A stretch of DNA of 32,106 nucleotides from an archaeon (GCA_026989875.1 JALSIP010000015.1:1-32106); one strand, 5' to 3'; positions 11,588-32,106 are shown, counted from the stretch's first letter. Translations and numbers: made by a program. Notes: generated by a model from the letters alone, not told the origin.

Positions 11588-12784
11588 ATGATTGATGAGG
11601 AGTTTCTCGTGGGTGAGGCTCTGGTAGGCGAGGAGCCGGAAGTTGCGCACATTGACCTGATAATAGGTCCCAAGAGCGGTGCAGCGGGGAGAGCCTTCGT
11701 CAACGCCCTTGCCCAGCCGCGCATGGGGCACACGCCAATTCTCGGGGTCATAAGACCCAACCTGCCCACGAAGCCGGCGACGCTCATAATCCCCAAGGTG
11801 ACCATAAGAAGCCTTGAGGATGCGGAGAAGGTTTTTGGTCCCGCCCAGAGTGCTGTAGCAAAGGCGGTGGCGGATGCGGTGGAGGAGGGCATTATTCCAA
11901 AATCAGAGGCTGAGAGGCTGGTTGCGATAGTTTCGGTGTTCATCCACCCGAGAGGCAGGGACTACCAGCGCATATACCGCTACAACTACGCAGCAACCAA
12001 GCTGGCGATTCGCAGGGCAATGCAGAAGTTCCCCTGTATAGATAAGGTTTTAGAGGAGAAGGATAAGTCTATGCATGCCATGATAGGTTTCAGGATAAAC
12101 AACCTGAAGCATCCTCCCTACCTGGAGGTTGCGCTTGACATACCCGACTGGCGCCGGGTGGAGGGCATTATAAGGGCGCTGCCCAGGAGCGACGCCATAA
12201 TCATAGAGGCTGGCACTCCGCTTATAAAGCGCTACGGCGTGGAGGTGGTGCAGAAGATTCACCAGCTCCGCCCCGAGAGCGTGGTGGTGGCTGACCTCAA
12301 GACCCTTGACACAGGCAACTTAGAGGCGAGAATGGCTGGCGACGCAACCGCTGACGTGATAGGCTTCTCGGGGCTTGCACCTCTCAGGACCATGGAGAAG
12401 TTCATAGAGGAGTGCAGAAAGGTGGGGGCGCTATCGCTTATGGACACGCTGAACGTGCCAGACCCCGTGGCTGTGCTGAAGAAGCTGAAGGTCAAGCCGG
12501 ACATCGTGGAGCTGCACAGAGCCATAGACGTGGAGCAGAGCCAGGAGAGCGAGTGGGGCAACATAAGCGAAATCAAGAGGGTGTGCGGCGGCAGGACGCT
12601 GGTGGCTGTGGCTGGAGGGATAAGGGTTGAGAGGGTGAAGGAGGCGCTCGCCTCGGGAGCAGACATACTGGTGGTGGGCAGAGCTATCACCTGCGCCAAG
12701 GACGTTACAGGTGCGGCGAGAGCCTTCCTGAAGGAGATGGGCGTGCAGGAGGTTGACCAGTTCCGGGTGATGACAGACTTCTGA
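11588..12784 (+). CDS. fae-hps: Bifunctional formaldehyde-activating enzyme / 3-hexulose-6-phosphate synthase (Fae-Hps)
   Basis: N-terminal Fae (VGEALVGEEPEVAHIDLIIGPKSGAAGRAFVNALAQPRMGHTPILGVIRPNLPTKPATLIIPKV). C-terminal Hps TIM barrel (VEGIIRALPRSDAIIIEAGTPLIKRYG..VVADLKTLDTGNLEARMA..ELHRAID..VAVAGGI). Confidence 0.97.
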   Translation: MIDEEFLVGEALVGEEPEVAHIDLIIGPKSGAAGRAFVNALAQPRMGHTPILGVIRPNLPTKPATLIIPKVTIRSLEDAEKVFGPAQSAVAKAVADAVEEGIIPKSEAERLVAIVSVFIHPRGRDYQRIYRYNYAATKLAIRRAMQKFPCIDKVLEEKDKSMHAMIGFRINNLKHPPYLEVALDIPDWRRVEGIIRALPRSDAIIIEAGTPLIKRYGVEVVQKIHQLRPESVVVADLKTLDTGNLEARMAGDATADVIGFSGLAPLRTMEKFIEECRKVGALSLMDTLNVPDPVAVLKKLKVKPDIVELHRAIDVEQSQESEWGNISEIKRVCGGRTLVAVAGGIRVERVKEALASGADILVVGRAITCAKDVTGAARAFLKEMGVQEVDQFRVMTDF

Positions 12785-12855: not shown

Positions 12856-15800
12856 ATGAACAGACACGCATTAGCCTTATCTGTAGCTGTAGCTCTGTTG
12901 CTGGCGGCTGGTGTTCCTGGTGCCGCACACGGATACTATATCACCGCATCTACCACAAAGATACAGTACGAAAAGGGTGAAGAGGTTGAAATAAAGGGCA
13001 CGGTGAATGCAAGCACACCTGCAACGGTTTACATCACCATATACAACTCATCAGATGTCCTGATACTGAATGAGAGCACCGTAAGCAACGTGAGTGGCAG
13101 CGTATCCACCTTTCACATGGCTATAGCCAATAACTTCTCTGCGGGCAGCTACTATGCTCTGGTTTACAGTGTGCCCGAGGAGAGCGTGAGGCTGGACTTT
13201 GAGGTGGTGGAGAGGGCGCTCTACGTGAAGGTGAGGCTGCTCAACACCACGGATGTGGTTATGGTGAACACCAGCACCGTGGTTACCTCTCCAGCCTATG
13301 CCGGGGGCAACTTCAGCGAGTTTCTTGAGGCGGGGTATGAGGTTCACTACGGAACCTCTGCCATTCTCGGAGGTAACACCTCCTACTTCGTGCTTGTAAA
13401 CCAGACGGCGCCGGAGGTTTTTGACACGGTTTATGTGGATGACGACCCGCGCTTTGAGCTGTACAACTCTGCCGAAGATTCAGCGTCAGCGCCGCTGGTG
13501 GAGACACCGCTGCGTGTGGGGGACAGGGCGGGTGACTACACCGTGGTGGAAGTGGAGTTTGCCACCGGCAACAGGGTGCTTCTGGCAAAGCTCAGGCATG
13601 CTCCGATGTACTCTGCCGGGGAGCAGGTCAAGTATCTGGTGGTGGTCAGGGACTCCGCCGGGAAGATGCTGGACGGTCTGAATCTGAGCGTGGAGCTGCG
13701 CCATGCCAACGGCACCCTAATAACCTCCTCTTCAGGTGTGCTGCAGAACGGCTACCTCACCGGCAGCTTCACCGCACCCGGGCGGCCGGGGAAGTACATG
13801 ATAACCGTGAACGGAACCCTGGGGATGGAGGTGTTCAGCGTTGAGGCATTCAGGCTGTTCGGCAGGATTACCGACATCAGCGGCAACCCCATGACGATTT
13901 TTGCACCTGACCCCAGGGTTAAGCTGGTGGCTATAGCCAGGGCACTCAACGGCGACCTGCTTAACCTCACCAGCGCCTCAGCCGAGCTCACCTACCCCAA
14001 CGGCACCACCTTAAGCTTGGAGCTGAACGCCGAGGGGGCAGGGGTCTACTCTAAGGAGCTCAGCCTCAAGGGGGCACCCGTGGGCGAGTACCGGGTGAGC
14101 ATAAGCGCTGCCTACGCCCAGGCAGTTCAGGAGACTGAGCTCGGGTTCACCATTGCCAGGAGCCGTGCTGAGCTCTATGCCATAAACGTCAGGTTCATAG
14201 ACCAGGCAGACGAGGGCGGCGTGTTTGTGAGCGCCTTCCACCCCGCCGGGGAGGTGACGCTGCTTGCAGTGCTCAGCGATGTGACAAAGGGCGGGCTGAT
14301 GTCCTCTGAGCCCGAGGGTGCGGGCATCATCCCCATAGACGACCCCGCAACGCCTGCTGACGAGTGCGCCAGCAGGGTGGAGCTCACGGAGCTGAAGGAC
14401 GAGCGTGACGTCTCCTACCTGAGCAACGTGAGCGTTAAGATAATGAACCTCTCATCCTTCATAGACTACCTCGCTTCCAGAGGGGAGGCGCCCTCCGAGC
14501 CACCGCCTGAGAGCCTGCTGAGCCAGTGCATGGTGGTGGTGAGCAACCTGAGCAAGCAGGGCGTTTACAGAGCCCAGGTGAAGGTCACCAGGAACGGGGA
14601 GAGCAGCGTTGCTGGCGCAGCCTTCGGCGTGCAGGAGCTTTACGCCTACGGCACAACCGTTGACTTCAACGGCGAGGACTTCGGGTTCAACGTGCCCAAC
14701 TCAACCATCAGGGTGAAGCTCCACGTGCAGAACCTCCTCACCAGGGAGTTTCTTCCACCTGAGAGCATAGTGGATGCGGACATAGTGAGCCTGCGCAGGG
14801 ACTTCCCGAGCTACAGTGAGGTGGATGTAAGCAGCATAGCTCCAACGGTGAACGTCAGCAATGGGGTGCTCTCCTTCAGGGCACCTGACATGGAGGGGTT
14901 CTTCACGATGAAGTTCAGATTCAGAGCCAACGTCAGCGGTGAAATCAGGGAGGGTGTTGGCAGCGCCTTCTTCATGCTCAAGAAGTACATAATATGGGCT
15001 GAGCCCGCATGCAGCTCCGAGCAGGGACCCTGCGTGTTCTCCAGCACCTCAAACATCTCCCTGCGGGTTTACATGGCAGACGCGAGCAGGGGCTCGCTCC
15101 TTGACCTGGGAGCCACGAGCAGTGCGCTGTGCAGCACCTGCGACGGGCTGGTGGCGAAGGTGAAGAGGCTGAGGAATGACCAGCTCGGCAGGGAGATTCC
15201 AGAGCAGGATTACGTGGTTTACGGCGGCAGCATATCTCAGGGTAAGGGAGTGATGAACGTAAGCGCAGCAGGCGGGGAGTTTTCCACGGGGTGGTACGGG
15301 GTTGAGATTGAGGTTTACAGCCCTGCTAACCCCAACGAAAGCTACTACGGCTTCGGGTGGTTTGAGGTGAGGAACTTCTTCGTGGATGTTCTGCCTGTAA
15401 GCATAGAAAGCGGCACGCTGAGAGCCTCCTGGGGCTGGGGCGGCGGGAGCAGCTATCCCGTAAACAGCTCCATAGCCTTCGCCGTGGTGCCCCGCAACCC
15501 GGCTGACTGGAGCATACTCCCGCTGAGCAGCGCAGAGGTGGTGAATGTGCAGCGTGCAGACCTCTGGCCACCGGTGGAGGTTAACTACACGCTGCTTGGC
15601 ATCTCGGAGATGCCGGTGCAGCTTGAGGGCGAGCCAGCTGCGGTGAACGTGACGGTGGTGAACATCTCCGGCATTGAGCGGGAGGGGATGTACAGCATCA
15701 ACGTGAGGGTGAGCACCTCCAACGGCAGCGACATAGGCACGGCGTGGTTTGATGTGGCGAGCTTCATGGTGGAGATGAGCTACCGTGGCATGTATGACTG

Positions 15801-18612
15801 GCCTCCTGTCTTCGGCTCCGGCGAGAATCTGACCCTCACGCTGGAGGGCTTCAACTTTGATGGCTCGCCCCACGCCCTGAGCGAGAACTACACCCGCCTT
15901 GCCGGGATGTACGACATCAAGAGAAACAGACCCGTGAGGGTGAACTCCTCCACCATCTGTGCCGCAAACGTGTGCAACATAACCGTTGACCTGAGCCCGC
16001 TGGCTGGCGGCGAGTACGATGCCAGGGTGAAGGCTGGCGACTCCAGCGGCACCGTTAAGGAGCTGGGAGTCTGGTTCATGGTGCGCAACCTGATGGTGGG
16101 GATTCCGAGCATTGAGGAGCTGTGGCTGTGGGACAAGGACTCCACCAGGAAGCAGCTCCGCCTGGATGGGACGCCGGTTGAGCCGCCAGGCAACTACACC
16201 ACCGCCTACAGCGGCTGCGTGCCGAACCTGATTGAGGATGAGTGGTTCTTCTCGGGGCTCAACCAGAGCCCCAGGACGGTGTGCTTCTACCACAACACCA
16301 CACGCCTGTGGGTGAGCCGGGACACCAACTTCACCAATGCCACCAGCGCACCTCTGGGCGGTGTAATTGAGGACCCCTACGGCGGGCTGTGGAAGGTTGA
16401 GACGCTGAACCTGGAGGAGGTGACGCTGCAGGGCATTAACGTGCTCTCCCGCACCGGCGCATGGGTGAATGCCAGCCTTTCTAAGAGCGGCGTGTTCAGG
16501 CTCGGCAGGGTGGAGGAGCAGTGGCTGGGCGGCTGGGACCCGAGCACCGGCATGCCCCGGGGGCTTGACCTGAACGGCGACGGCGACACCAACGACACCG
16601 CCTACATAGCGCTTTCGGATTCGGCAAAGGCAGGGGTTTACGACACCCTGTTCTTCTCCTTTGACGCCAACTTCTCCCGGCACGGCTCTGTTGGGGAGCC
16701 ACCGGAGAAGCGCACCTTCGCGGGCGGCAGGTTCACGCTGCTCAGCGTTGACCCCAGGGCGGACAGGGTCAGGGTTTACACCCGCAGCAGGGGCGACTGG
16801 GCAGAGCTGGGAGACGTGCGCCTGGGAGATGTGGTGAGGCTGCCTGTCATGGTGACGGCACCCTCCGGCGAGCCCGTGGCTGCCAACGTCTCGGTCTCCC
16901 ACGTGAGGGTGGAGAGCCTAACCCCGGTGGTCATGCCCCTCTCACCGCCGGTCACAGCCACCATCAACGGCACGGGAGAGCTCATGCTCAACCTCAGCCA
17001 GTACAACCTGAGCTCCGGCAGGTATGCCTTTGAGATATCCGCCGAGGTTAACGGCACCGTGGAGAGGCTTGAGGAGTGGATGTGGCCCAGGGTTACGGTG
17101 CGTGCCTTCCTGGTGAGCAGCAGCGCGGGAAACGCAGCCTACGCCGGGGAGTTCAGACCCCTGCCCATGCTGCAGATTGACGGGAGCCAGCCCCTGCCGG
17201 AGCTGTTTGAGGTGAGCACGCCGGCAGGCAACTACTCGCTGGTGATGGAGTACTTGGATGCAGGGGCGGTGTATCTGGGCAACTGCACCTCTCCCCCTGA
17301 TGCGGGTGCCGGCGAAAACTACACCCTGCAGAGCCTGCGCCTCAGCGATGCCAACGGAAGCTACTTCTTCTTCCTGAGCACCGCCAACGCCAGCACGGTG
17401 TGGTTGCGGAAGGGAGACTGCAGCTTTGACGCTCCAGGCACCCAGGTGAGGCGAACCAACGAGTCCGTAAACATCACCCTGGACGGCAGGGTGTACATGA
17501 TGAGCGTGCTTGAGGCAGAGGCTTATCCCGGCGGGCAGGTGCAGCTCGCCATAGGCGCCGCCTCACCTAGCCAGGAGCTGCTGGACAACCCGCTGGTGCG
17601 GGACGCCTTCGGCGGAAGGTGGAGGGTGGTATCCTTCAGCGCCTGGGGCAGGAGCTACAACGCCATTCTCGCGGGCTCTCAGGCGTACTACCCCATGTGC
17701 GCCCAGCTCGGAGTCGTGGAGTGCCTTAAGGCTGCCTACTTCACCACCGACGGCAACTACTCCAAGGCTAATGAGACGCTGGCAGGCATGCCACTGCCGG
17801 GTGGCGAGCTTTACTTAGCCAGAGCTGGACCTTCACCCTGGGACGGCATAGTCATAGCCAACGCCTCCGCAGCCCCTGAGATGCCGGCGGTGGACGTGAT
17901 GCTGGAGGACGGCTATACCCCAAGGTTTGCGGTGCTCAGGGAAGCCAGCATCGGCAGGGACCTTGACGCAGACGGCAACTCCTCTGAGGTCTTCTATGCG
18001 GTGCTGTTTGACGACCTTGCCGACGGGGTTCAGGCACCCACGGCGGTGCTGGTGGATGACGACCTGAATATGACCCAGAGCTGGTGGGGCTTCTGGGATG
18101 CCTCCCAGAACTTCAGCGCCTGGGACTTCTACGGGAATGAGAGCGGCATGCCTGAGCAGAGGGGTGCCATGCCGGCGGCTGGCTGGAGCGGTTTCATCGG
18201 CTTCGGCGTGTGGAACGAGAGCCAGAGCTACGAGCAGCCCTGGTGGAGCATCATGCTCTACAACGGCACCCACCTGCTCATAACTCAGGACAGGTGGAGC
18301 TTCAGCCTCAACGATACCGTGAGCTTCGTGGTGCATGCCTACGACTTTGAGCGCATGCCTGTGCAGGGCGCCAGCGTGAGCGTTGAGGCGGTGGTGAGGT
18401 TCACACCCCTCGGCGCCCAGGTGCTGCAGGAGGGCACCGACTACACCACCTCTGGCAGCACGGCAACAGATTCCAGCGGCTACGCGGTGGTGTCTGTGAG
18501 CCCCGTAAGCTCCTGGGAGGCTGGAGACTACTCCGTCACCCTGAGGGTTGACGGACCTGGAGGCAGCGAGAAGATTGACACCTGGCTCAGGATAGGGGGT
18601 GGTGAGAAGTGA
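12856..18612 (+). CDS. Giant secreted multi-domain (Ig/MG2-like) surface or S-layer protein, 1918 aa
   Basis: Signal peptide MNRHALALSVAVALLLAAGVPGAAHG. Repeated beta-sandwich-like units ending in G.Y...V.......G.A.F.V..F/L.V. Abundant N-x-S/T sequons; two Asp-rich modules. No C-terminal TM of its own. Confidence 0.9.
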   Translation: MNRHALALSVAVALLLAAGVPGAAHGYYITASTTKIQYEKGEEVEIKGTVNASTPATVYITIYNSSDVLILNESTVSNVSGSVSTFHMAIANNFSAGSYYALVYSVPEESVRLDFEVVERALYVKVRLLNTTDVVMVNTSTVVTSPAYAGGNFSEFLEAGYEVHYGTSAILGGNTSYFVLVNQTAPEVFDTVYVDDDPRFELYNSAEDSASAPLVETPLRVGDRAGDYTVVEVEFATGNRVLLAKLRHAPMYSAGEQVKYLVVVRDSAGKMLDGLNLSVELRHANGTLITSSSGVLQNGYLTGSFTAPGRPGKYMITVNGTLGMEVFSVEAFRLFGRITDISGNPMTIFAPDPRVKLVAIARALNGDLLNLTSASAELTYPNGTTLSLELNAEGAGVYSKELSLKGAPVGEYRVSISAAYAQAVQETELGFTIARSRAELYAINVRFIDQADEGGVFVSAFHPAGEVTLLAVLSDVTKGGLMSSEPEGAGIIPIDDPATPADECASRVELTELKDERDVSYLSNVSVKIMNLSSFIDYLASRGEAPSEPPPESLLSQCMVVVSNLSKQGVYRAQVKVTRNGESSVAGAAFGVQELYAYGTTVDFNGEDFGFNVPNSTIRVKLHVQNLLTREFLPPESIVDADIVSLRRDFPSYSEVDVSSIAPTVNVSNGVLSFRAPDMEGFFTMKFRFRANVSGEIREGVGSAFFMLKKYIIWAEPACSSEQGPCVFSSTSNISLRVYMADASRGSLLDLGATSSALCSTCDGLVAKVKRLRNDQLGREIPEQDYVVYGGSISQGKGVMNVSAAGGEFSTGWYGVEIEVYSPANPNESYYGFGWFEVRNFFVDVLPVSIESGTLRASWGWGGGSSYPVNSSIAFAVVPRNPADWSILPLSSAEVVNVQRADLWPPVEVNYTLLGISEMPVQLEGEPAAVNVTVVNISGIEREGMYSINVRVSTSNGSDIGTAWFDVASFMVEMSYRGMYDWPPVFGSGENLTLTLEGFNFDGSPHALSENYTRLAGMYDIKRNRPVRVNSSTICAANVCNITVDLSPLAGGEYDARVKAGDSSGTVKELGVWFMVRNLMVGIPSIEELWLWDKDSTRKQLRLDGTPVEPPGNYTTAYSGCVPNLIEDEWFFSGLNQSPRTVCFYHNTTRLWVSRDTNFTNATSAPLGGVIEDPYGGLWKVETLNLEEVTLQGINVLSRTGAWVNASLSKSGVFRLGRVEEQWLGGWDPSTGMPRGLDLNGDGDTNDTAYIALSDSAKAGVYDTLFFSFDANFSRHGSVGEPPEKRTFAGGRFTLLSVDPRADRVRVYTRSRGDWAELGDVRLGDVVRLPVMVTAPSGEPVAANVSVSHVRVESLTPVVMPLSPPVTATINGTGELMLNLSQYNLSSGRYAFEISAEVNGTVERLEEWMWPRVTVRAFLVSSSAGNAAYAGEFRPLPMLQIDGSQPLPELFEVSTPAGNYSLVMEYLDAGAVYLGNCTSPPDAGAGENYTLQSLRLSDANGSYFFFLSTANASTVWLRKGDCSFDAPGTQVRRTNESVNITLDGRVYMMSVLEAEAYPGGQVQLAIGAASPSQELLDNPLVRDAFGGRWRVVSFSAWGRSYNAILAGSQAYYPMCAQLGVVECLKAAYFTTDGNYSKANETLAGMPLPGGELYLARAGPSPWDGIVIANASAAPEMPAVDVMLEDGYTPRFAVLREASIGRDLDADGNSSEVFYAVLFDDLADGVQAPTAVLVDDDLNMTQSWWGFWDASQNFSAWDFYGNESGMPEQRGAMPAAGWSGFIGFGVWNESQSYEQPWWSIMLYNGTHLLITQDRWSFSLNDTVSFVVHAYDFERMPVQGASVSVEAVVRFTPLGAQVLQEGTDYTTSGSTATDSSGYAVVSVSPVSSWEAGDYSVTLRVDGPGGSEKIDTWLRIGGGEK

Positions 18613-20045
18613 GGAGCGCTGTGATATTTGCACTGCTGCTTGCGCTGCAGGCTGTGCACGCCGCCACGGTGAGCATCAGCCAGCCCGGGGCAGACCCGGG
18701 CACTGTGATGAAGGGCAGGTACTTCACCATAACCGTCTCGGGGCTGAGCGGCAGCGGCACCGCCACGCTGATTCTTCCGACAGGGGTCACGGTGGAGGAG
18801 GGCACCACCAAGTCCTTCAGCTCAGGCAGTGTCTCCTGGACCACCGCGATAGCGAGCCAGACGCTGACGGGGCAGAAGGTTTACGTGAGCATAAGCACAG
18901 CGGGCAGCCCGGTAACCGCTGCCTCTGACCCCTTTGACATCGTGCTCCCCCCATCCTTAGAGCTGAGCGTTTATCCTGCTTCCTTTGTTGAGCCTTCGGG
19001 AGAGAAAACCCTGCAGCTCACCATCAGGAACTGGGGCGAGACCACCGCAAGGGACGTGAGTGTGAGGCTCTCCCTCCCCCGGGGCGTGAGCATAGCCACA
19101 GGAAGTGCCACCCAGAGCATCCCCACGATTCTCGGGGGTACAGGGGGGAACGGTGAGAGCAGGGGCATCTCCTGGGTGCTGAGCTTTGACAGTCCCTCAA
19201 ACGGCAGCATAGAGATAACGGTAACGCCCTCAAATGCCGAAACCAGGTCCGTGAGCGTGCCCGTGGTGGTGTACGGCGCCACCCAGACCCAGCCCGCCGG
19301 CACCGGCGGCGGGGGAGGCGGTGGCGGAGGCGCTGCTGCAGAGCTTCCCAACGTGAAGGAGATTCCGAAGATTCTTTCAGGAAGCCAGTACACCGTGAGC
19401 TTTGACTCCCGCCTGGTGCCGGGACTGGAGAGCGTGCAGATATTTGCAGCCGCTGACCAGTACCTGACCCGGCTGACGGTTGAGAGCTTCCTGAGAAAGC
19501 CGGACTGGGTGAACTTCGCCGAGCCGGAGGGCAGGGTTTACATTTACTACAGGATGAGCTACAGCAAACCGGAGACCTACGTGGAGAAGGCGAGGATACG
19601 CTTCAGGGTGAACGAGAGCTGGCTCAGGGAACAGGACATCAACCCGGAGAAGCTTGCGCTCTACAGGCTGAGCAGCTCCCGCACCTGGGAGCGTCTCTCA
19701 ACAAAGCCCGAGAGGGCGGGAGACGGCTACATAACCTTCTCTGCACTTTCCCCCGGCTTTAGCTGGTTTGCGGTGGCGGGGGAGCCGGGTACCGGCTTCA
19801 GGGACGTTTTCGCCGAGGAAGAGCGCAGCGTGCAGCAGTTGCCTGAGGAGGAGCAGGCTGGCGCAAAGGCTGAGGCTGAGCAGCAGCCTGCAGAGCTTGG
19901 CGCCGAGCTGCAGCCCCCGGCGCCGGAGGAGCAGCCCTCAGCGCCTGCGGGTGAGGAGGGCGAGAAGAAGCGCTGGATATGCGCTCCAGCGGCAGTGCTC
20001 TTAGCGCTGCTGCCGGCTGTGCTGGGAAGACGCATCCGCCTGTAG
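18609..20045 (+). CDS. Secreted PGF-pre-PGF domain protein with Gly-rich hinge, acidic stalk and C-terminal Cys-TM-Arg anchor
   Basis: Signal peptide MRSAVIFALLLALQAVHA; poly-Gly hinge GTGGGGGGGGGAAA; PGF-pre-PGF-like region (SGSQYTVSFDSRLVPGLESVQIF..VEKARIRFRVNESWLREQDINPEKLALYRL..WERLSTKP..YITFSALSPGFSWFAVAG); C-terminus KKRWICAPAAVLLALLPAVLGRRIRL. GTGA overlap with the giant gene. Confidence 0.88.
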   Translation: MRSAVIFALLLALQAVHAATVSISQPGADPGTVMKGRYFTITVSGLSGSGTATLILPTGVTVEEGTTKSFSSGSVSWTTAIASQTLTGQKVYVSISTAGSPVTAASDPFDIVLPPSLELSVYPASFVEPSGEKTLQLTIRNWGETTARDVSVRLSLPRGVSIATGSATQSIPTILGGTGGNGESRGISWVLSFDSPSNGSIEITVTPSNAETRSVSVPVVVYGATQTQPAGTGGGGGGGGGAAAELPNVKEIPKILSGSQYTVSFDSRLVPGLESVQIFAAADQYLTRLTVESFLRKPDWVNFAEPEGRVYIYYRMSYSKPETYVEKARIRFRVNESWLREQDINPEKLALYRLSSSRTWERLSTKPERAGDGYITFSALSPGFSWFAVAGEPGTGFRDVFAEEERSVQQLPEEEQAGAKAEAEQQPAELGAELQPPAPEEQPSAPAGEEGEKKRWICAPAAVLLALLPAVLGRRIRL

Positions 20046-23410: not shown

Positions 23411-24451
23411 ATGAACATCGCAATACTTAGCAGATGGAATGCTACATGCGGGGTTTCCATGCATGCTGAGCTTGTAGGGAGGGAGTTCCTGAAGATGGGG
23501 GATGATATAACCGTGTTTGCTCCCTACGTTGAGAGCGCAGACCGCTGGTGGCATCACAGGCTGATAAAGGAGGATGAGAGCTACGTGGTGCGCTGCTACG
23601 AGGAGGTGGACCCTCAGGGGAGAGGCGGCAGGATAGACATCCCCAGAGTGCTGGAGCACGAGTTTGATGCCCTCATCGTGGAGTCCTACGCCAGCCTGCC
23701 CTACGCCGATGTGGAGAGGCTTGCGGGGGAGGTGGATGCAGAGGTGCTGCTGGTGGTGCATGAGGGCGGCGCAGAGCAGCTCAGGTACACCTCCTTGGAG
23801 GTCTTTGACAGGGTGGTGGTGTTTGATGAGCGCTACGTGCGGGAGGTGCTCGCCGGCAGGGTGCCTGCGGAGAGGGTTGCCATTGTCCCCTTCCCCTGCC
23901 ACCCGGTGTCCCGGGGTAAGGGGCGGAGAAGGCGAGGGGGCAAGCTGAGGTTCTTCTCCTTCGGCAGGCAGCCCGTGAAGGAGTATGCCCCCTACATCGC
24001 CGCCCTTGACAGGCTGAGCGAGAGCTATGAGCTGGAGTACCTGGTGGTCAGAGCAGACGAGCACCGCATAGAGGCTGAGAGGGACTGGCTGATTCAGAGG
24101 CACCAGAGGCTTGACACGTCGCAGATTTACGAGTACCTGCACAGCGCGGATGTGCACCTCCTGCCCAAGGGCGGCACCCACTACGTGGTGGTGTCCTCAA
24201 CCCTGTGCCAGTGCCTCGGTGCCCTCTGCCCCACGGTGGCTCCAGCCACCAGGCACTTTGAGATGCTGCCCAGCAGGAATGGTGTCTCGCCGGTGGTGCT
24301 GTACAGCAGCGTGGACGAGCTGGTGGCGAAGCTGAGAAGGCTGGTGGAGGATGACGACTTCAGGGCTGGCGTGCTCAGGATGGCGGAGGAGTATGTGAGG
24401 CAGAACAGCTCGGAGAGGGTCGCCAGAAGGCTCAAGCAGCTCATGGCATGA
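23411..24451 (+). CDS. GT4-like glycosyltransferase (group 1 family)
   Basis: N-terminal MNIAILSRWNATCGVSMHAELVGREFLKMGDDITVFAPY; KLRFFSFGRQPVKEYAPYIAAL; C-terminal donor-binding-like region. Confidence 0.82.
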   Translation: MNIAILSRWNATCGVSMHAELVGREFLKMGDDITVFAPYVESADRWWHHRLIKEDESYVVRCYEEVDPQGRGGRIDIPRVLEHEFDALIVESYASLPYADVERLAGEVDAEVLLVVHEGGAEQLRYTSLEVFDRVVVFDERYVREVLAGRVPAERVAIVPFPCHPVSRGKGRRRRGGKLRFFSFGRQPVKEYAPYIAALDRLSESYELEYLVVRADEHRIEAERDWLIQRHQRLDTSQIYEYLHSADVHLLPKGGTHYVVVSSTLCQCLGALCPTVAPATRHFEMLPSRNGVSPVVLYSSVDELVAKLRRLVEDDDFRAGVLRMAEEYVRQNSSERVARRLKQLMA

Positions 24452-24454
24452 GCT
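24438..24454. repeat. Near-perfect palindrome spanning two convergent stop codons
   Basis: AGCTCATG-g-CATGAGCT. It encodes L-M-A-stop on + and L-M-P-stop on -. Confidence 0.85.
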
Positions 24455-25121
24455 CACGCCGGTAAACCCTGTGCCTGAGCTGGCGAATCTCCTCGGTAAC
24501 GTCTATCTGCTGAGGGCAGACCGCCCTGCAGGTGCCGCAGGTGGTGCACAGGTAGAGTCCCTCGCTCACCGCTATGCCGAGACGGTCAAGCACATCCCTG
24601 GGGTCGTGCACGAATCTGCTGAGCAGCCGGAAGAGCGCAGGTCCAGCGAACTCCTTGGTGTGGGTGTGGGCTGGGCAGGAGCTCATGCAGCACCAGCACT
24701 CTATGCATGCCTTCGGCTTCTCCAGCGCCCTGAGCCTTGAGAGCTCAATCCTCTCCACACCTCCCGGGGTGCTGCCGCCTCTGTGCAGGTAGGGGCGGAG
24801 GGAGGCTATCCTGGGTCTGGCGCTCTGCAGAGCCACAGCCAAGTCCTTTATCACGGGCAGGTTCCTGAGGGGCTCAAGGAGCATTCCATCTTCCACGTCT
24901 GTCCTGCACGCCAGAACTGGCTTGCGGTTCGCCAGCACGGCGCAGGAGCCGCACTGCCCCGCCCTGCAGGAGCTCCTGTAGGCTATGTTGGCGCCGTAGC
25001 GCTCGTTTATCTGCTGGAGCGCATCTATTATCTTCATGTGGGGGTGATGCTCCACCTCGTAGCTCTCGTAGCGTGGCTTTTCATCAACCTGCGGGTTGTA
25101 CCTGAAGATTGTGAGCCTCAT
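24441..25121 (-). CDS. Fumarate reductase / succinate dehydrogenase iron-sulfur subunit
   Basis: SSCRAGQCGSCAVLANRKPVLACRTDV ([2Fe-2S]); CIECWCCMSSCPAH and CTTCGTCRAVCPQQI cluster motifs. Follows the flavoprotein gene. Confidence 0.92.
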   Translation of the reverse strand: MRLTIFRYNPQVDEKPRYESYEVEHHPHMKIIDALQQINERYGANIAYRSSCRAGQCGSCAVLANRKPVLACRTDVEDGMLLEPLRNLPVIKDLAVALQSARPRIASLRPYLHRGGSTPGGVERIELSRLRALEKPKACIECWCCMSSCPAHTHTKEFAGPALFRLLSRFVHDPRDVLDRLGIAVSEGLYLCTTCGTCRAVCPQQIDVTEEIRQLRHRVYRRELMP

Positions 25122-25133
25122 GCTTGTGCCTCC

Positions 25134-26822
25134 TCAGGGTGGCATCTTGGTGATAACGGGATCAGCCGTGCGCAGCAGCATCCCTCCATCCGCCCTGCTC
25201 ACCACGATGTTCTTCACCCACCTGGGGTCCTCTTCGGGATAGTCGCTGCGGTAGTGGGCGCCCCTGCTCTCTGTGCGGAGAAGCGCGCTCCTGGCAATCA
25301 TCTCAGCCACCAGAAGCATGTTCTCCAGCTCAACCGCCGTAAGAAGCTGCAGGTTGTACCTGAGCCCGCTCTCAACGCCCACCTGCTCAACACGCTGCCT
25401 GAGCTCTGAAATCTTCCTGAGGGCTTCTTCAAGGCTCTGCCTGCTCCTGATTATCCCCACCTTCTCCCACATCACCCGCTGAAGCTCCGCACGCAGGGTG
25501 TAGGGAAGCTCACCCTTGCCTGACTCAAAGCGGTAGATTCTGCGGTGCTCTTCTTCAAGGGCTGCGGTGTCTATCCTTGCGTGGCTCCTCTTAGATGCCG
25601 TCAGGGCTGCACTTCTGCCGGCAATCGCCCCGAAGACCTGGGTCTCAGCTAAGGAGTTGCCGCCAAGGCGATTGGCGCCGTGCACCCCGCCGGCGCACTC
25701 GCCGCAGGCGAAGAGGTTGGGCACCGAAGAGCGGCACTCGGGGTCTATCCTCACGCCGCCCATGAAGTGGTGGGCGCTCGGAGAAACCTGCATGGGCTCC
25801 CTCCTGATGTCCACCCCAACGTCTAAGTACTGGGAGAGCATGGTGCCCAGCTTCTGCTCTATGACCTCGTCGGGTACGTGGGTGACGTCCAGGTAAACAC
25901 CCCCGTGCTCCGTCCCCCTGCCCTCCGCTATCTCCCTGTATATCGCCTTGGTTACCACGTCCCGGGTGGAGAGCTCAGCCCTCTCCTGGTCGTACCTGAG
26001 CATGAAGCGCTCTCCTAAGGCGTTGTAGAGCTTGCCGCCTTCACCTCGCACCGCCTCTGTAACGAGCAGCCCGCTGGCGGAGGGCGGATAAACCATGCCC
26101 GTGGGGTGAAACTGAACCATCTCCATGTCTATGAGCTCGGCGCCCGCGTTGTAGGCGAGGGCGTAGCCGTCCCCGGTCTTCTGGAAGGGGTTGGTGGTTA
26201 TCGCGTAAACCCTCCCCGCACCGCCAGTTGCAAGTACCACCGCCTTTGCTCTGAAGAGCAGAAACCTGCCGTGTATCAGGTCAAGACCCGTCGCACCCGC
26301 AACGGCGCCGTCCGCCAGGAGAAGCCTGGTGATGGCTACCTCTTCAAGCACGTCTATGCCGAGGCGGTAAACCTCCTCCTTGAGGGCGCTCATCATCTCG
26401 TGCCCTGTCCTGTCGCCCCTGTGCACGGTGCGTCTGAACCTCTGACCGCCGAAGTAGCGCTGGTCGTACTTCTCCGGCTCAACACGGTCAAACACCGCCC
26501 CGAACCTCTCAAGCTCTATCAGACGCTCGGGCGCATGCTCCACAAGAATTTCAACCAGCTTCTGGTTGTTCAGCCACCTGCCGCCTATGATGGTGTCCTC
26601 AAAGTGGTGCTCCCGGCTGTCAGAGGGGTCAACAAAGCTGAAAGCGGCGTTGTAACCACCTTCTGCCATAACCGTGCAGCCGCTCCTGCCGAAGAGCCCC
26701 TTGACAACCACCAGAACGTCGGCACCATGCCTCCTCGCCTCTATGGCGGCTCTCGCACCGGCGCCGCCGCCTCCTACCACCAGCACGTCGCACTGGTAAA
26801 CATCGTCAACAAGCTCCGGCAT
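25134..26822 (-). CDS. Fumarate reductase / succinate dehydrogenase flavoprotein subunit
   Basis: CDVLVVGGGGAGARAAIEARRHGADVLVV; REHHFEDTIIGGRWLNNQKLV; HRGDRTGHEMM; FHPTGMVYPPSASGLLVTEAVRGEGG; NLFACGECAGGVHGANRLGGNSLAETQVFG; HYRSDYPEEDP. Confidence 0.95.
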   Translation of the reverse strand: MPELVDDVYQCDVLVVGGGGAGARAAIEARRHGADVLVVVKGLFGRSGCTVMAEGGYNAAFSFVDPSDSREHHFEDTIIGGRWLNNQKLVEILVEHAPERLIELERFGAVFDRVEPEKYDQRYFGGQRFRRTVHRGDRTGHEMMSALKEEVYRLGIDVLEEVAITRLLLADGAVAGATGLDLIHGRFLLFRAKAVVLATGGAGRVYAITTNPFQKTGDGYALAYNAGAELIDMEMVQFHPTGMVYPPSASGLLVTEAVRGEGGKLYNALGERFMLRYDQERAELSTRDVVTKAIYREIAEGRGTEHGGVYLDVTHVPDEVIEQKLGTMLSQYLDVGVDIRREPMQVSPSAHHFMGGVRIDPECRSSVPNLFACGECAGGVHGANRLGGNSLAETQVFGAIAGRSAALTASKRSHARIDTAALEEEHRRIYRFESGKGELPYTLRAELQRVMWEKVGIIRSRQSLEEALRKISELRQRVEQVGVESGLRYNLQLLTAVELENMLLVAEMIARSALLRTESRGAHYRSDYPEEDPRWVKNIVVSRADGGMLLRTADPVITKMPP

Positions 26823-28093: not shown

Positions 28094-28807
28094 GTGGGGC
28101 TGATGTATGCACTGCTGCTCCTGCTCCTGCTGGGAGCGGTTATCTACTGGAAGCGCGTGCTTGACGCCAAGGGTACGCTGCTTGCAACCTTCATGGGGGG
28201 TGCGGTTTACGCATCTGGCGGCTATGCCTGGCTTTTCCTGCTGCTGAGCTTTCTTTTTCTGGGTTTTGCCACCACCCGCTACAGGTTCGGCTACAAGAAG
28301 AGCATGGGCGTTTGCGAGGCTTCAGGGGGATGCAGGGGTCCCGCAAACGTAATCGCCAACGGCGCTGTGCCTGTGCTTTTTGCGCTCCTCAACATGGCGC
28401 ACGAGTCGGTGCTGTTTGCGGCAGGCTACGTCGCCAGCGTGGCGAGCGTTACCGCAGACACCCTGTCCTCTGAGCTTGGAGTGCTCAGCAGGCAGAGGCC
28501 GGTGCTCATAACCACCCTCAAACCCGTAAAGCCCGGCACAGACGGCGGTGTAACGCTGCTGGGCGAGGCTGCTGGCGTGGCGGGGGCGCTTTTCGTGGCT
28601 CTTCTGTCAGCTCTCACCGGGGTGGCGCCCGTGAGTGTGAGCTTAGCTGCTGGCGTGGCGGGCGGAATCGTGGGGTTTAACGTGGACAGCCTGCTGGGTG
28701 CCACCTTAGAGCGCCGCAGGCTGCTGGAGAACACAGGTGTGAACCTGCTCTCAAGCCTCGCCGGGGGTGTGGTGGGCTCCGCTGCAGCGCTTGCGCTTCT
28801 GCGATAG
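28094..28807 (+). CDS. DUF92 (TMEM19/VTE6-like) integral membrane protein
   Basis: Multiple TM helices; LDAKGTLLATFMGGAVYASGGYAWLFLLLSFLFLGFATTRY, GPANVIANGAVPVLFAL and ADTLSSELGVLSRQRPVLITTLKPVKPGTDGGVTLLG match the DUF92 family. Confidence 0.88.
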   Translation: MGLMYALLLLLLLGAVIYWKRVLDAKGTLLATFMGGAVYASGGYAWLFLLLSFLFLGFATTRYRFGYKKSMGVCEASGGCRGPANVIANGAVPVLFALLNMAHESVLFAAGYVASVASVTADTLSSELGVLSRQRPVLITTLKPVKPGTDGGVTLLGEAAGVAGALFVALLSALTGVAPVSVSLAAGVAGGIVGFNVDSLLGATLERRRLLENTGVNLLSSLAGGVVGSAAALALLR

Positions 28808-28837
28808 TTATTTATTCTCCCGGCACCAGCATGAGGC

Positions 28838-29815
28838 ATGCGTGCCGAGGCTTACCGCAGGCTGCCCCTTGAGGAGCTTCTCCTCAGAGCCTGGGAGCTC
28901 AGAAGGCGCAACTTCCGGGATGTGCTACACCTCTCGGCGCCCTCCATGAAGTGGTACCGTTCCGAGAGGTACGCCAACAGCCCCTCGTGCTTTGTCAGCG
29001 TGAGCATCACGGGCAGCGAGTGCGCTCTTAAGTGCAAGCACTGCGGGGGCAGGCTGCTGGAGAGCATGCACCAGGTGCGCACTCCAGAAGAGCTGGCTGA
29101 GCTGGGCAGGAGGCTTGTTGAGAGGGGTGCCAGGGGTGTGCTGGTGAGCGGTGGCGCCGATGCCAAGGGCTGCGTGCCTCTGCGAGGGTTTGAAGGCGCT
29201 CTGAGGGAGCTCAGGGAAATGGGGCTCAGGGTGATTGTGCACTCGGGCATAGTGGGGGAGGATGATGTTGCTGCCCTGAGACGGGCGGGTGTTGAGCAGG
29301 TGCTGCTGGACGTGATAGGCTCTGAGAGCACCGCAAGGGAGGTGTACCACCTCCAGGCAATGCCCGAAGACTACCTGCGCAGCATGCGGCTGCTCCGAGA
29401 GGCCGGGATAACCATAGCCCCTCACGTGGTGGTGGGGCTGCATGGCGGCAGGGTGGTGGGGGAGTACAGGGCTCTTGAGATGATAGCCGAAGCGGGGGCA
29501 GAAATCGTGGTGGTGGTGGCTCTCTCGCCGATGCCGGGCACCGCCTACGGGAGCGTCAGCCCGCCGGCGCCGGAGGAGGTTGCAAGAGTGGTGGCGGTTG
29601 CCAGGCTTTTAAACCCGCATGCGATGCTCAGCCTCGGATGCGCAAGGGCGCCCGCGGACAAGAGGAGGATTGAGACCCTCGCCATAGATGCGGGAGTGAA
29701 CACCATTGCCTACCCGAGCGATGAGGCGGTTTCGCATGCGGAGCGGCGAGGACTTGAGGTGGTCTTTTCAGAGCTCTGCTGCACCCTTGCTGGAGCGGGA
29801 GCCTGGCGGAGATGA
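28838..29815 (+). CDS. Radical SAM protein, probable LipS2-type lipoyl synthase component
   Basis: CALKCKHCGG (CxxxCxxC) radical SAM cluster; biotin-synthase-like N-terminus; C-terminal FSELCCTL. Overlaps a lipoate ligase gene by ATGA. Confidence 0.75.
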   Translation: MRAEAYRRLPLEELLLRAWELRRRNFRDVLHLSAPSMKWYRSERYANSPSCFVSVSITGSECALKCKHCGGRLLESMHQVRTPEELAELGRRLVERGARGVLVSGGADAKGCVPLRGFEGALRELREMGLRVIVHSGIVGEDDVAALRRAGVEQVLLDVIGSESTAREVYHLQAMPEDYLRSMRLLREAGITIAPHVVVGLHGGRVVGEYRALEMIAEAGAEIVVVVALSPMPGTAYGSVSPPAPEEVARVVAVARLLNPHAMLSLGCARAPADKRRIETLAIDAGVNTIAYPSDEAVSHAERRGLEVVFSELCCTLAGAGAWRR

Positions 29816-30804
29816 GGCTGCTTGAGCTGGGCTACATGGGCTGGAAGCAGAGCCAGCTCGTGTACCATGCGCTGGCTGAGCTGGGCGAGCCGGCGGTGGT
29901 GCTGCAGAGAACCGCCCACACCTACTTCTGCCTGGGGATGTTCAGCCCGGCTGAGGACCTGAATCTGAGCTTTCTGGAGAGGCGTGGCATCCCGTGCTTC
30001 AGACGTGCCATAGGCGGTGGCACGGTGCTCCTGGACAGGGAGCAGCTCTTCTACCACGTGGTTATTCCCAGAGAGAGCGAGCTTGCACCCGTGAGGGTCT
30101 CAACCATGTACCGCAGGTTTCTCAAGCCGGTGATTGACACGTATGCCGAGCTCGGAGTGAAGGCAAGCTACAGACCTGCCAGCGACATCGTTGCGGAGGG
30201 CAGGAAGGTCTCCGGCAACGGCGCAGGTGTGGTTGGCGAGTGCCTGGTGCTAAGCGGCAGCATGCTGCTGGACTTCAACTTTGAGCTTATGGCAGAAGCC
30301 CTCAACCTGCCGGGGCGCCTGAGGAGAAGGGCGCTGGAGCTGATGCGGGAGAGGCTGGGAACGCTGAAGCAGCTCGCCGGAGAGGTTGATGCGGCAGAGC
30401 TGAGACGAATGCTCGCGGGCAGGTTTGAGGACCTCTTCGGCGGCTTTGAGAGCGGAAGGCTCAGCTTGGAGCTGGTGCGGGAAATGCGCAGGCTTGAGGG
30501 CAGGTACACGAGCAGGGAGTGGCTCTACGCCCGGGGCAGGAGGCGGCAGGGGACGCTGCTCAAGATAGCGGAGGGCTGCTACCTAATTCACACGAAGCTG
30601 GCGGGCGTGGAGCTGAGTGCGGAGCTGCAGGAGGGTGTGCTGGGGAATGTGCGTGCTCTCAGAGGCGGCAGAAGGCAGCGGGAGCTTGAGGATGCGCTTG
30701 CGGGGGTGAGGGCTGAGAGGCAGAAAATCTTAAATATCTTAGCCGAGAGACTTGGCTGTACCGAGGAGATTGAGAAGGCGGCAGAGCTTCTTGCAGGAGG
30801 ATGA
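29812..30804 (+). CDS. Lipoate-protein ligase A family protein
   Basis: RRAIGGGTVLLDREQLFYHVVIP and GRKVSGNGAGVVGECLVLSGSMLLDFNFELM (catalytic Lys region) of the LplA/LipB fold; C-terminal accessory domain. Confidence 0.92.
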   Translation: MRLLELGYMGWKQSQLVYHALAELGEPAVVLQRTAHTYFCLGMFSPAEDLNLSFLERRGIPCFRRAIGGGTVLLDREQLFYHVVIPRESELAPVRVSTMYRRFLKPVIDTYAELGVKASYRPASDIVAEGRKVSGNGAGVVGECLVLSGSMLLDFNFELMAEALNLPGRLRRRALELMRERLGTLKQLAGEVDAAELRRMLAGRFEDLFGGFESGRLSLELVREMRRLEGRYTSREWLYARGRRRQGTLLKIAEGCYLIHTKLAGVELSAELQEGVLGNVRALRGGRRQRELEDALAGVRAERQKILNILAERLGCTEEIEKAAELLAGG

Positions 30805-30807
30805 GGG

Positions 30808-31263
30808 ATGAAGAGCGAGACTGAGCAGGTGCTCAGGGTGGGTGAGTACGTTTTTCCCCTTGACAGGTACTACTGCTCCTATCAGAACTCTCACCTGTGG
30901 CTCAGGATGGTTGATGAGAACATCGCCGAAGTGGGCATAGATGCCTTCCTGAGCGAGACCGCCGGCAGGCTGAGCTACCTCAGCGTGAGCTCGGAGAGGC
31001 TTGAGCGGGGAAAGAGCTTTGCAACCATTGAGTCTGCGAAGTTCGTGAGCAGGCTCGCAGCACCTGTGAGCGGCGAGGTGGTGGAGCTGAATGCGGAGGT
31101 GCTGGCAAATCCCTCCAGGGTTAACGAGGCGCCCTACGATGCCTGGATTCTCAGGGTGAGGCTCGCCTCGCGGGAGGAGCTTGAAGCTGAGGGCATGCTC
31201 AGGAGCGCTGAGCAGATAAGAGCCTGGATTGAGAGAGAGATTGAGAGGCTGGAGGAGGAGTAG
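30808..31263 (+). CDS. gcvH: Glycine cleavage H-protein-like lipoyl carrier protein
   Basis: NSHLWLRMVDENIAEVGIDAFLSETAGRLSYLSV..GKSFATIESAKFVSRLAAPVSGEVVELNAEVLANPSRVNEAPYDAWIL. Lipoyl-Lys motif ESAKFVSRLAAPVSG. Confidence 0.92.
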   Translation: MKSETEQVLRVGEYVFPLDRYYCSYQNSHLWLRMVDENIAEVGIDAFLSETAGRLSYLSVSSERLERGKSFATIESAKFVSRLAAPVSGEVVELNAEVLANPSRVNEAPYDAWILRVRLASREELEAEGMLRSAEQIRAWIEREIERLEEE

Positions 31264-32106
31264 TGGAGAGCCCGGAATACGTTCAGACCTCCACGGCTGG
31301 TGCAATAACCCTGGGGCTGATGAAGGGCAGGTTCCACCGCGGGGCAAAGCTGAGGGCGCTGAACCTGCTCCTCACCTACCGGGATGGCTGCAAGGGGGCG
31401 TGCGCATACTGCGGGCTCTCCAGAAGACGGGTGGAGGGCGAGAGCTTCATCAGGGTGGAGTGGCCGGTGTATGCGGTTGATGAGATTCTTGAGAGGCTCA
31501 GGGGCAGGGAGCTGGTGGAGAGGGTGTGTATCTCCATGCTCACCCACCCCAGGGCATACCGGGACACCATAGAGCTTGCGGGGAGGTTTGGAGAGCTCAT
31601 GCCGGTGTCTGTGCTCGCTTCGCCGATGCTGATTCGCTCGCCGGAGCAGCTTGAGAAGCTCAGGGAGGCGGGCGCAGATATGTGCGGCATAGCCGTGGAC
31701 TGCGCCACTCCGGAGCTCTTTGAGAGGCTCAGGGGCAGGGGTGCAGGAAGCGGGCACCGCTGGGAGCAGTACTGGAGGGTGCTGGAGTGGGCTGTGGCAT
31801 GCTTCGGCAGGTACAACGTGAGCGTGCACCTGATTGTGGGGCTGGGCGAGAGCGAGCAGGAGATGCTTGCCACGGTGCAGCGTGCCTACGACCTGGGCGC
31901 TGAGGCGCACCTCTTCGCCTTCTACCCCGAGCCGGGCTCGCCAATGCAGCAGCATCCCAGGGTGCCCTTAGAACAGTACCGCAGGGTGCAGCTTGCCAGG
32001 TACCTGATTCACACCCGGCAGGCGAGGTTTGAGGATATGAGGTTTGACAGCCGGGGAAGGGTGGTGGGCTACGGGGTGGACGCAGAGACGCTGAGAAGGG
32101 TGGTGG
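31263..32106 (+). CDS. Radical SAM protein, probable LipS1-type lipoyl synthase component (3' truncated by window edge)
   Basis: GTG start overlaps the gcvH TAG by 1 nt. VESPEYVQTSTAGAITLGLMKGRFHRGAKLRALNLLLTYRDGCKGACAYCGLSRRRVEG (CxxxCxxC); the frame is open to the window end. Absent from the supplied ORF track because there is no stop in the window. Confidence 0.8.
   Translation, partial: MESPEYVQTSTAGAITLGLMKGRFHRGAKLRALNLLLTYRDGCKGACAYCGLSRRRVEGESFIRVEWPVYAVDEILERLRGRELVERVCISMLTHPRAYRDTIELAGRFGELMPVSVLASPMLIRSPEQLEKLREAGADMCGIAVDCATPELFERLRGRGAGSGHRWEQYWRVLEWAVACFGRYNVSVHLIVGLGESEQEMLATVQRAYDLGAEAHLFAFYPEPGSPMQQHPRVPLEQYRRVQLARYLIHTRQARFEDMRFDSRGRVVGYGVDAETLRRVV

Follow-up and report, generated by a model that had tools for sequence, protein, structure and literature searches.

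A putative bacterial-type LipS1/LipS2 lipoyl-assembly operon in an archaeal genome without the known lipoate clients tested

Introduction

What purpose does a complete set of genes for lipoyl-cofactor assembly serve in an archaeon in which none of the usual lipoate-dependent enzymes tested is found? The LipS1/LipS2 pathway, together with clusters that combine it with GcvH-like acceptors, has already been published (PMC6067878, PMC9585515, PMC10332631). Only 8% of the archaea with LipS1/S2 possess sHdr (Tanabe 2023, PMC10332631), and in those with LipS1/S2 but without sHdr the role of lipoate is often open. The stretch of DNA analyzed here, called the window (32,106 nt), carries such genes in the order lipS1-lpl-H1-lipS2, forming one operon. 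They belong to a small genome family that keeps the full assembly set and two lipoyl proteins without the known clients tested, so that the partner of a lipoyl protein can be searched for directly among few candidates. We conclude that the four genes are very probably a dedicated, putative LipS1/LipS2-type operon for lipoyl-cofactor assembly.

The host genome and the operon

The host is a Hydrothermarchaeota MAG (G000, completeness 99.96%) of a hot-vent archaeon. Its closest named relative is the Candidatus Hydrothermarchaeota MAG S140_74, with 84% identity, and Candidatus Pyrohabitans JdFR-16 and JdFR-17 are named members of its family; relatives were picked up by scanning genome contigs with an alignment of close LipS1 sequences. 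The window is the complete contig C15, which ends inside gene 4, and lipS2 is for this reason truncated. The 3' portion of the gene lies on contig C115 (7558-8031, minus strand), which shares with C15 a 308-nt overlap containing a single amino-acid difference; the 158 C-terminal residues read from C115 bring the joined LipS2 to 337 aa.

The original prediction had described a compact lipoate-assembly operon, and its layout proved accurate: the four reading frames lie where it had placed them, both radical SAM genes contain CxxxCxxC (Table 1), and the junctions are exact, with an ATGA overlap at 29812-29815, a gap of 3 nt at 30805-30807 and a 1-nt TAGTG overlap at 31261-31265. The type of operon, LipS1/LipS2 with a lipoate ligase and a GcvH-like protein, is supported by NCBIfam matches and by the Pfam domains of genes 1 to 4 (Radical_SAM+BATS, LplA-B_cat, GCV_H and Radical_SAM, respectively), and the classical LipA said to be missing is indeed absent from the operon and, by profile search, from the entire genome. 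The expression "self-contained" is unsupported as worded, given that the genome encodes, at other loci, a further H protein and a further ligase, LplA-DUF116.

Table 1. Positions of the operon features in the window
Feature	Position	Strand	Remarks
TATA-like box ATAGTTATTTAT	28804..28815	+	23-34 nt 5' of lipS1; overlaps the stop of the upstream DUF92 gene
lipS1	28838..29815	+	325 aa, radical SAM + BATS
LipS1 CxxxCxxC (C62, C66, C69)	29021..29044	+	invariant, 16 aligned sequences
LipS1 H196	29423..29425	+	invariant in two alignments; ligand role from PMC9585515
LipS1 C268, auxiliary-cluster ligand (T. kodakarensis C230)	29639..29641	+	invariant; role from PMC9585515
LipS1 C314-C315, auxiliary-cluster ligands (T. 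kodakarensis C276-C277)	29777..29782	+	invariant; role from PMC9585515
lpl, two-domain lipoate-protein ligase	29812..30804	+	330 aa, divergent "type II" branch
H1, GcvH-like lipoyl carrier	30808..31263	+	151 aa; PF01597, 90 bits
H1 lipoyl-attachment lysine K78 (ESAK)	31039..31041	+	aligned with the lipoyl lysine of a solved GcvH and of E. coli GcvH
lipS2, 5' part	31263..32106	+	281 codons, to the end of the window; rest on C115:7558-8031 (-)
LipS2 CxxxCxxC (C43, C47, C50)	31389..31412	+	invariant
LipS2 C89, auxiliary ligand (T. kodakarensis C85)	31527..31529	+	invariant; role from PMC9585515
LipS2 H189, likely auxiliary ligand (T. kodakarensis H178)	31827..31829	+	invariant; role from PMC9585515

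The cassette genes are under purifying selection (dN/dS of 0.16-0.23 against the nearest relative) and their order is conserved in each of the nine family genomes in which LipS1 was found, the operon missing, among the ten family genomes, only from G001, which is 62% complete; the gene set is therefore not due to chance. Because the upstream neighbors differ between genera, rpS3ae-DUF92 in g1 and g3 and another gene in g2, it is the cassette itself that constitutes the conserved unit. The TATA-like box is probably its promoter, and an AT-rich element (ATAAATATTTAA and similar) is found at roughly the same position before lipS1 in the g1 and g3 relatives. The 668-aa gene directly 5' of lipS1 in genus g2 was considered as HdrDE-like and rejected, as it encodes an OB-fold protein and not an Hdr.

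LipS1 and LipS2

Gene 1 had been labeled LipS2-like and gene 4 LipS1-like. These labels are reversed, since NCBIfam names gene 1 LipS1 (NF053742, 223.1 bits, E 5e-66, with bioB as runner-up at 56 bits) and gene 4, even truncated, LipS2 (NF053743, 184 bits), and the tree agrees. The score of gene 1 narrowly misses the curated cut-off of 230 for NF053742, which is a curation threshold and not a biochemical feature, and the LipS1 of three relatives (G002, G003, G004) score 230.1-245.8; the full-length LipS2 of relatives, which make up a divergent branch carrying a C-terminal insertion, reach 230-234 bits, below the curated cut-off of 270 for NF053743. When 71 LipS1/LipS2 rows were placed in one tree together with BioB, LipA and other radical SAM proteins, LipS1 constituted one side of a branch (SH-aLRT 88; the starred set is the 26 LipS1 rows) with the window copy within it, and LipS2 one side of another (support 100*). 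On the basis of the tree and of the predicted ligands, we file gene 1 as a divergent LipS1 and gene 4, independently of the cut-off, as a divergent LipS2.

The order of sulfur insertion and the cluster ligands were described by Neti 2022 (PMC9585515). In LipS1, the six cysteines (three of the radical SAM cluster and three of the auxiliary cluster) and the histidine are all invariant in our alignments; H196 was taken to correspond to H159 of T. kodakarensis, a species whose sequence lay outside the alignment. LipS2 shows invariance over 20 sequences for its radical SAM cysteines, for C89 and H189, and for the C-terminal pair (the C276/C279 equivalents); the host's own pair was read on contig C115. 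The spacing of this pair is either C-x2-C, seen in seven archaeal sequences, or C-x8-C, seen in bacterial sequences, in the host's family and in G073 (e.g., L043:2707-3759). The predicted structure of LipS2 from the relative G002 (pLDDT 88.8) most closely resembles biotin synthase and human lipoyl synthase. In other archaea, two LipS1 paralogues accompany a single LipS2 in each of the clusters L045, L046 and L047 (genomes G021, G055 and G033).

From these sequences, we infer that the cassette is active as a lipoyl synthase set. Lpl would activate free octanoate with ATP and attach it to K78 of H1, after which LipS2 would put sulfur at C8 first and LipS1 at C6 afterwards, each enzyme presumably donating the sulfur from its own auxiliary [4Fe-4S] cluster.

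Comparison with known clusters

The lipS1-sLpl(AB)-lipT-lipS2 clusters that accompany LbpA in sHdr sulfur oxidizers (PMC6067878; PMC10332631) also combine two radical SAM enzymes, a ligase and an adjacent GcvH-like acceptor, and they share with the host the bacterial C-x8-C form of LipS2. The host differs in that no sHdr core was found, H1 does not have the LbpA cysteines, the order is lipS1-lpl-H1-lipS2, lipT is not in the operon and the ligase is from the type II branch. The LipS1/LipS2 and LplAB of Thermococcus kodakarensis (PMC9585515) are likewise archaeal and present equal cluster-ligand residues in both enzymes, whereas in the host the LipS2 pair is C-x8-C, not C-x2-C, and the ligase is one fused protein; in addition, a glycine cleavage system is present in G026, the genome with the LipS1 nearest the Thermococcus-type model, and not in the host genome. 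The typical archaeal cluster, lipS2-lplA-lplB-lipS1 (PMC10332631), also gathers every function in a single cluster, but the host presents a mirror order, a fused ligase and an H protein within the operon. Judged by its sequences, the cassette is a bacterial-type variant of the LipS1/S2 operon in an archaeon. What is new here is the bacterial-type LipS2, the separate ligase branch, the H protein within the operon and the absence of a known client. In the main text of Tanabe 2023 (PMC10332631), no reference to Hydrothermarchaeota was found.

Lipoate ligases and DUF116

Lpl scores 105 bits against PF21948, and it retains the RR-GGG motif, the catalytic lysine, the accessory domain and the catalytic fold; its AlphaFold model has a pLDDT of 92.5 and the top PDB matches are all lipoate ligases. 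The second ligase of the host genome, of type I, is encoded on C51 (L130:8419-9999), fused to DUF116, and belongs to a different clade from Lpl (100/99*). Alicyclobacillus, a gemmatimonadote and an actinobacterium also have ligases in the type II clade, and in each case a ligase from the other clade is encoded nearby. Fusions of LplA with DUF116, 517-556 aa long, adjoin LipS1/S2 at several other archaeal and bacterial loci, which suggests that DUF116 may belong to lipoate assembly; a literature search found no paper linking DUF116 with lipoate. The ligase-DUF116 fusions listed are G000:C51, L041, L051, L056, L143, L145, L147, L150 and L192, often with LipS1/LipS2 adjacent.

The presence of two ligases of separate clades and two H proteins in the host genome recalls the LipM-GcvH-LipL relay of lipoate in Bacillus subtilis. 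By analogy, H1 could be an assembly carrier on which Lpl and LipS1/S2 complete lipoate, LplA-DUF116 then handing it to H2. The bacterial clusters L141, L144 and L148, in which a type II ligase stands together with a type I ligase, are consistent with such a transfer, as are the end cysteines, absent in H1 and present in H2. However, the ligase lysine is present in both host ligases, which may both be ATP-dependent ligases with different targets, and no type I ligase turned up in G008 and G009. We consider a relay unlikely.

The H proteins H1 and H2

H2, the second GcvH-like protein, is encoded on contig C47; it has cysteines at residues 12 and 154, and its lipoyl motif is ESGK. H1 has no or one end cysteine, never a pair. 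Cysteines near both ends are a feature of LbpA, with archaeal exceptions (PMC6067878). H1 and H2 are sisters, and their closest kin are H proteins encoded in sHdr-like clusters together with Etf-like genes, the Etf label being given on visual inspection of the sequences. For the cassette ligase and the H proteins taken together, the nearest relatives come from bacterial clusters like the type II sHdr defined in PMC11582611. A further GCV_H match, on C59, was set aside because, judged from its sequence, it is the biotinyl domain of a pyruvate/oxaloacetate carboxylase-like protein.

This kinship of both H proteins and ligase, as well as the cysteine pair of H2, positioned as described for LbpA (PMC6067878), could mean that H1 and H2 belong to, or are left over from, an sHdr-type system of sulfur oxidation. 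An sHdr cluster has the form C1B1AHC2B2 or C1B1AHB3+etfAB. Yet the host genome has a single full HdrA-like gene, a canonical HdrA2 (C107), profile searches found there no sHdr-type HdrA and no short sHdrA-like gene, and H1 is without the pair. One clade uniting all cysteine-pair H proteins, as expected if the pair of H2 and LbpA had arisen only once, was weakly rejected (AU p 0.034), so that the pair of H2 may be convergent. Taken together, an sHdr origin appears quite unlikely.

Known lipoate clients

Profile searches of the host genome found no GcvT, GcvP, E2 of 2-oxoacid dehydrogenases or LipA, and its CCG genes have no linkage to HdrA. The original prediction assumed a dedicated H protein, for which gcvP, gcvT and sHdr genes were sought elsewhere in the genome, and none was found; because gcvP and gcvT were not found, H1 is not the H protein of a glycine cleavage system. 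The host genome is without any known lipoate client among those tested, lipoyl users having been sought by their PF00198 or PF01597 domains. GcvT, GcvP and E2 are likewise missing from the ten family genomes, barring a GDC-P match below cut-off in G003; such absences rest on draft MAGs and the genes might sit on missing contigs, against which stand the completeness of 99.96% and the agreement within the family. Ordinary support of glycine cleavage or of a 2-oxoacid dehydrogenase is therefore very improbable: H1 does score as GCV_H, but these enzymes are absent, and the grouping of H1 with true GcvH is rejected (AU p 0.0014).

Across the order, families f4, f5 and f8 have genomes with LipA and E2 and without a strong LipS1, and f1, f2, f9 and f10 have LipS1/S2 with GcvH-like proteins and without E2, gcvT or a full gcvP. 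The two lipoate systems, LipS1/S2 with GcvH-like proteins versus LipA with E2, replace each other across the order.

An Hdr-type enzyme as candidate partner

The steps beyond cofactor assembly are read from gene neighborhood and kinship. Lipoyl H1, H2 or both would be dithiol or sulfane-sulfur carriers for Hdr-type disulfide enzymes, as LbpA is for sHdr. By this analogy, the client may be an Hdr-type enzyme, a possibility to which we give a little less than an even chance. The strongest candidate is the membrane HdrDE/DsrMK-like fusion adjoining H2, a protein of about 670 aa of HdrDE/DsrMK/TfrB type whose N-terminal half is hydrophobic and whose C-terminal half consists of Fer4+CCG. H2 adjoins this gene in G000, G002, G006 and G007, the adjacency missing in G003 and G004, and the Hdr/DsrMK neighborhood concerns H2, not H1. 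GcvH-like genes also stand beside HdrC-HdrB in G020, G021, G044 and a deltaproteobacterium.

We propose, tentatively and as a somewhat unlikely extension, that Hydrothermarchaeota may harbor a novel lipoate-dependent process in which lipoyl H proteins are dithiol substrates of a membrane HdrDE/DsrMK-like complex and are supplied by the LipS1/S2 operon and the DUF116-fused ligase. If true, DUF116 would be a lipoate-assembly module. Three features could be tested as extensions of the pathway, namely the second branch of ligases, the fusions of LplA with DUF116 that adjoin LipS1/S2, and LipS2 in its C-x8-C form. The idea that H2 substitutes for DsrC beside the DsrMK-like protein was weakened by the presence of DsrC in G000 and most relatives.

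Two further loci contain HdrD-like genes. On C41 of the host genome (L124:7845-10015), a GlcD-like FAD oxidase stands beside an HdrD-like CCG protein that shares 54% identity with the C-terminal portion of the HdrDE-like protein adjoining H2. In Desulfosporosinus (L142:1-8924), E2, a ligase-radical SAM fusion, two GcvH-like proteins, an FAD oxidase, an HdrD-like protein, LipS2 and LipS1 are encoded in one row.

Other genes in the window

A 1918-aa ORF (12856-18612, plus strand), in which MG2 (macroglobulin-like) was the sole domain found, is directly followed by a gene (18609-20045) without Pfam match. Positions 11588-12784 (plus strand) encode a fusion of formaldehyde-activating enzyme and hexulose-6-phosphate synthase (PRK13307). 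Finally, a TfrA/TfrB-like fumarate reductase/succinate dehydrogenase pair is encoded at 24441-26822 (minus strand), matching PRK06263 with 801 bits, above cut-off, and PRK06259 below it.
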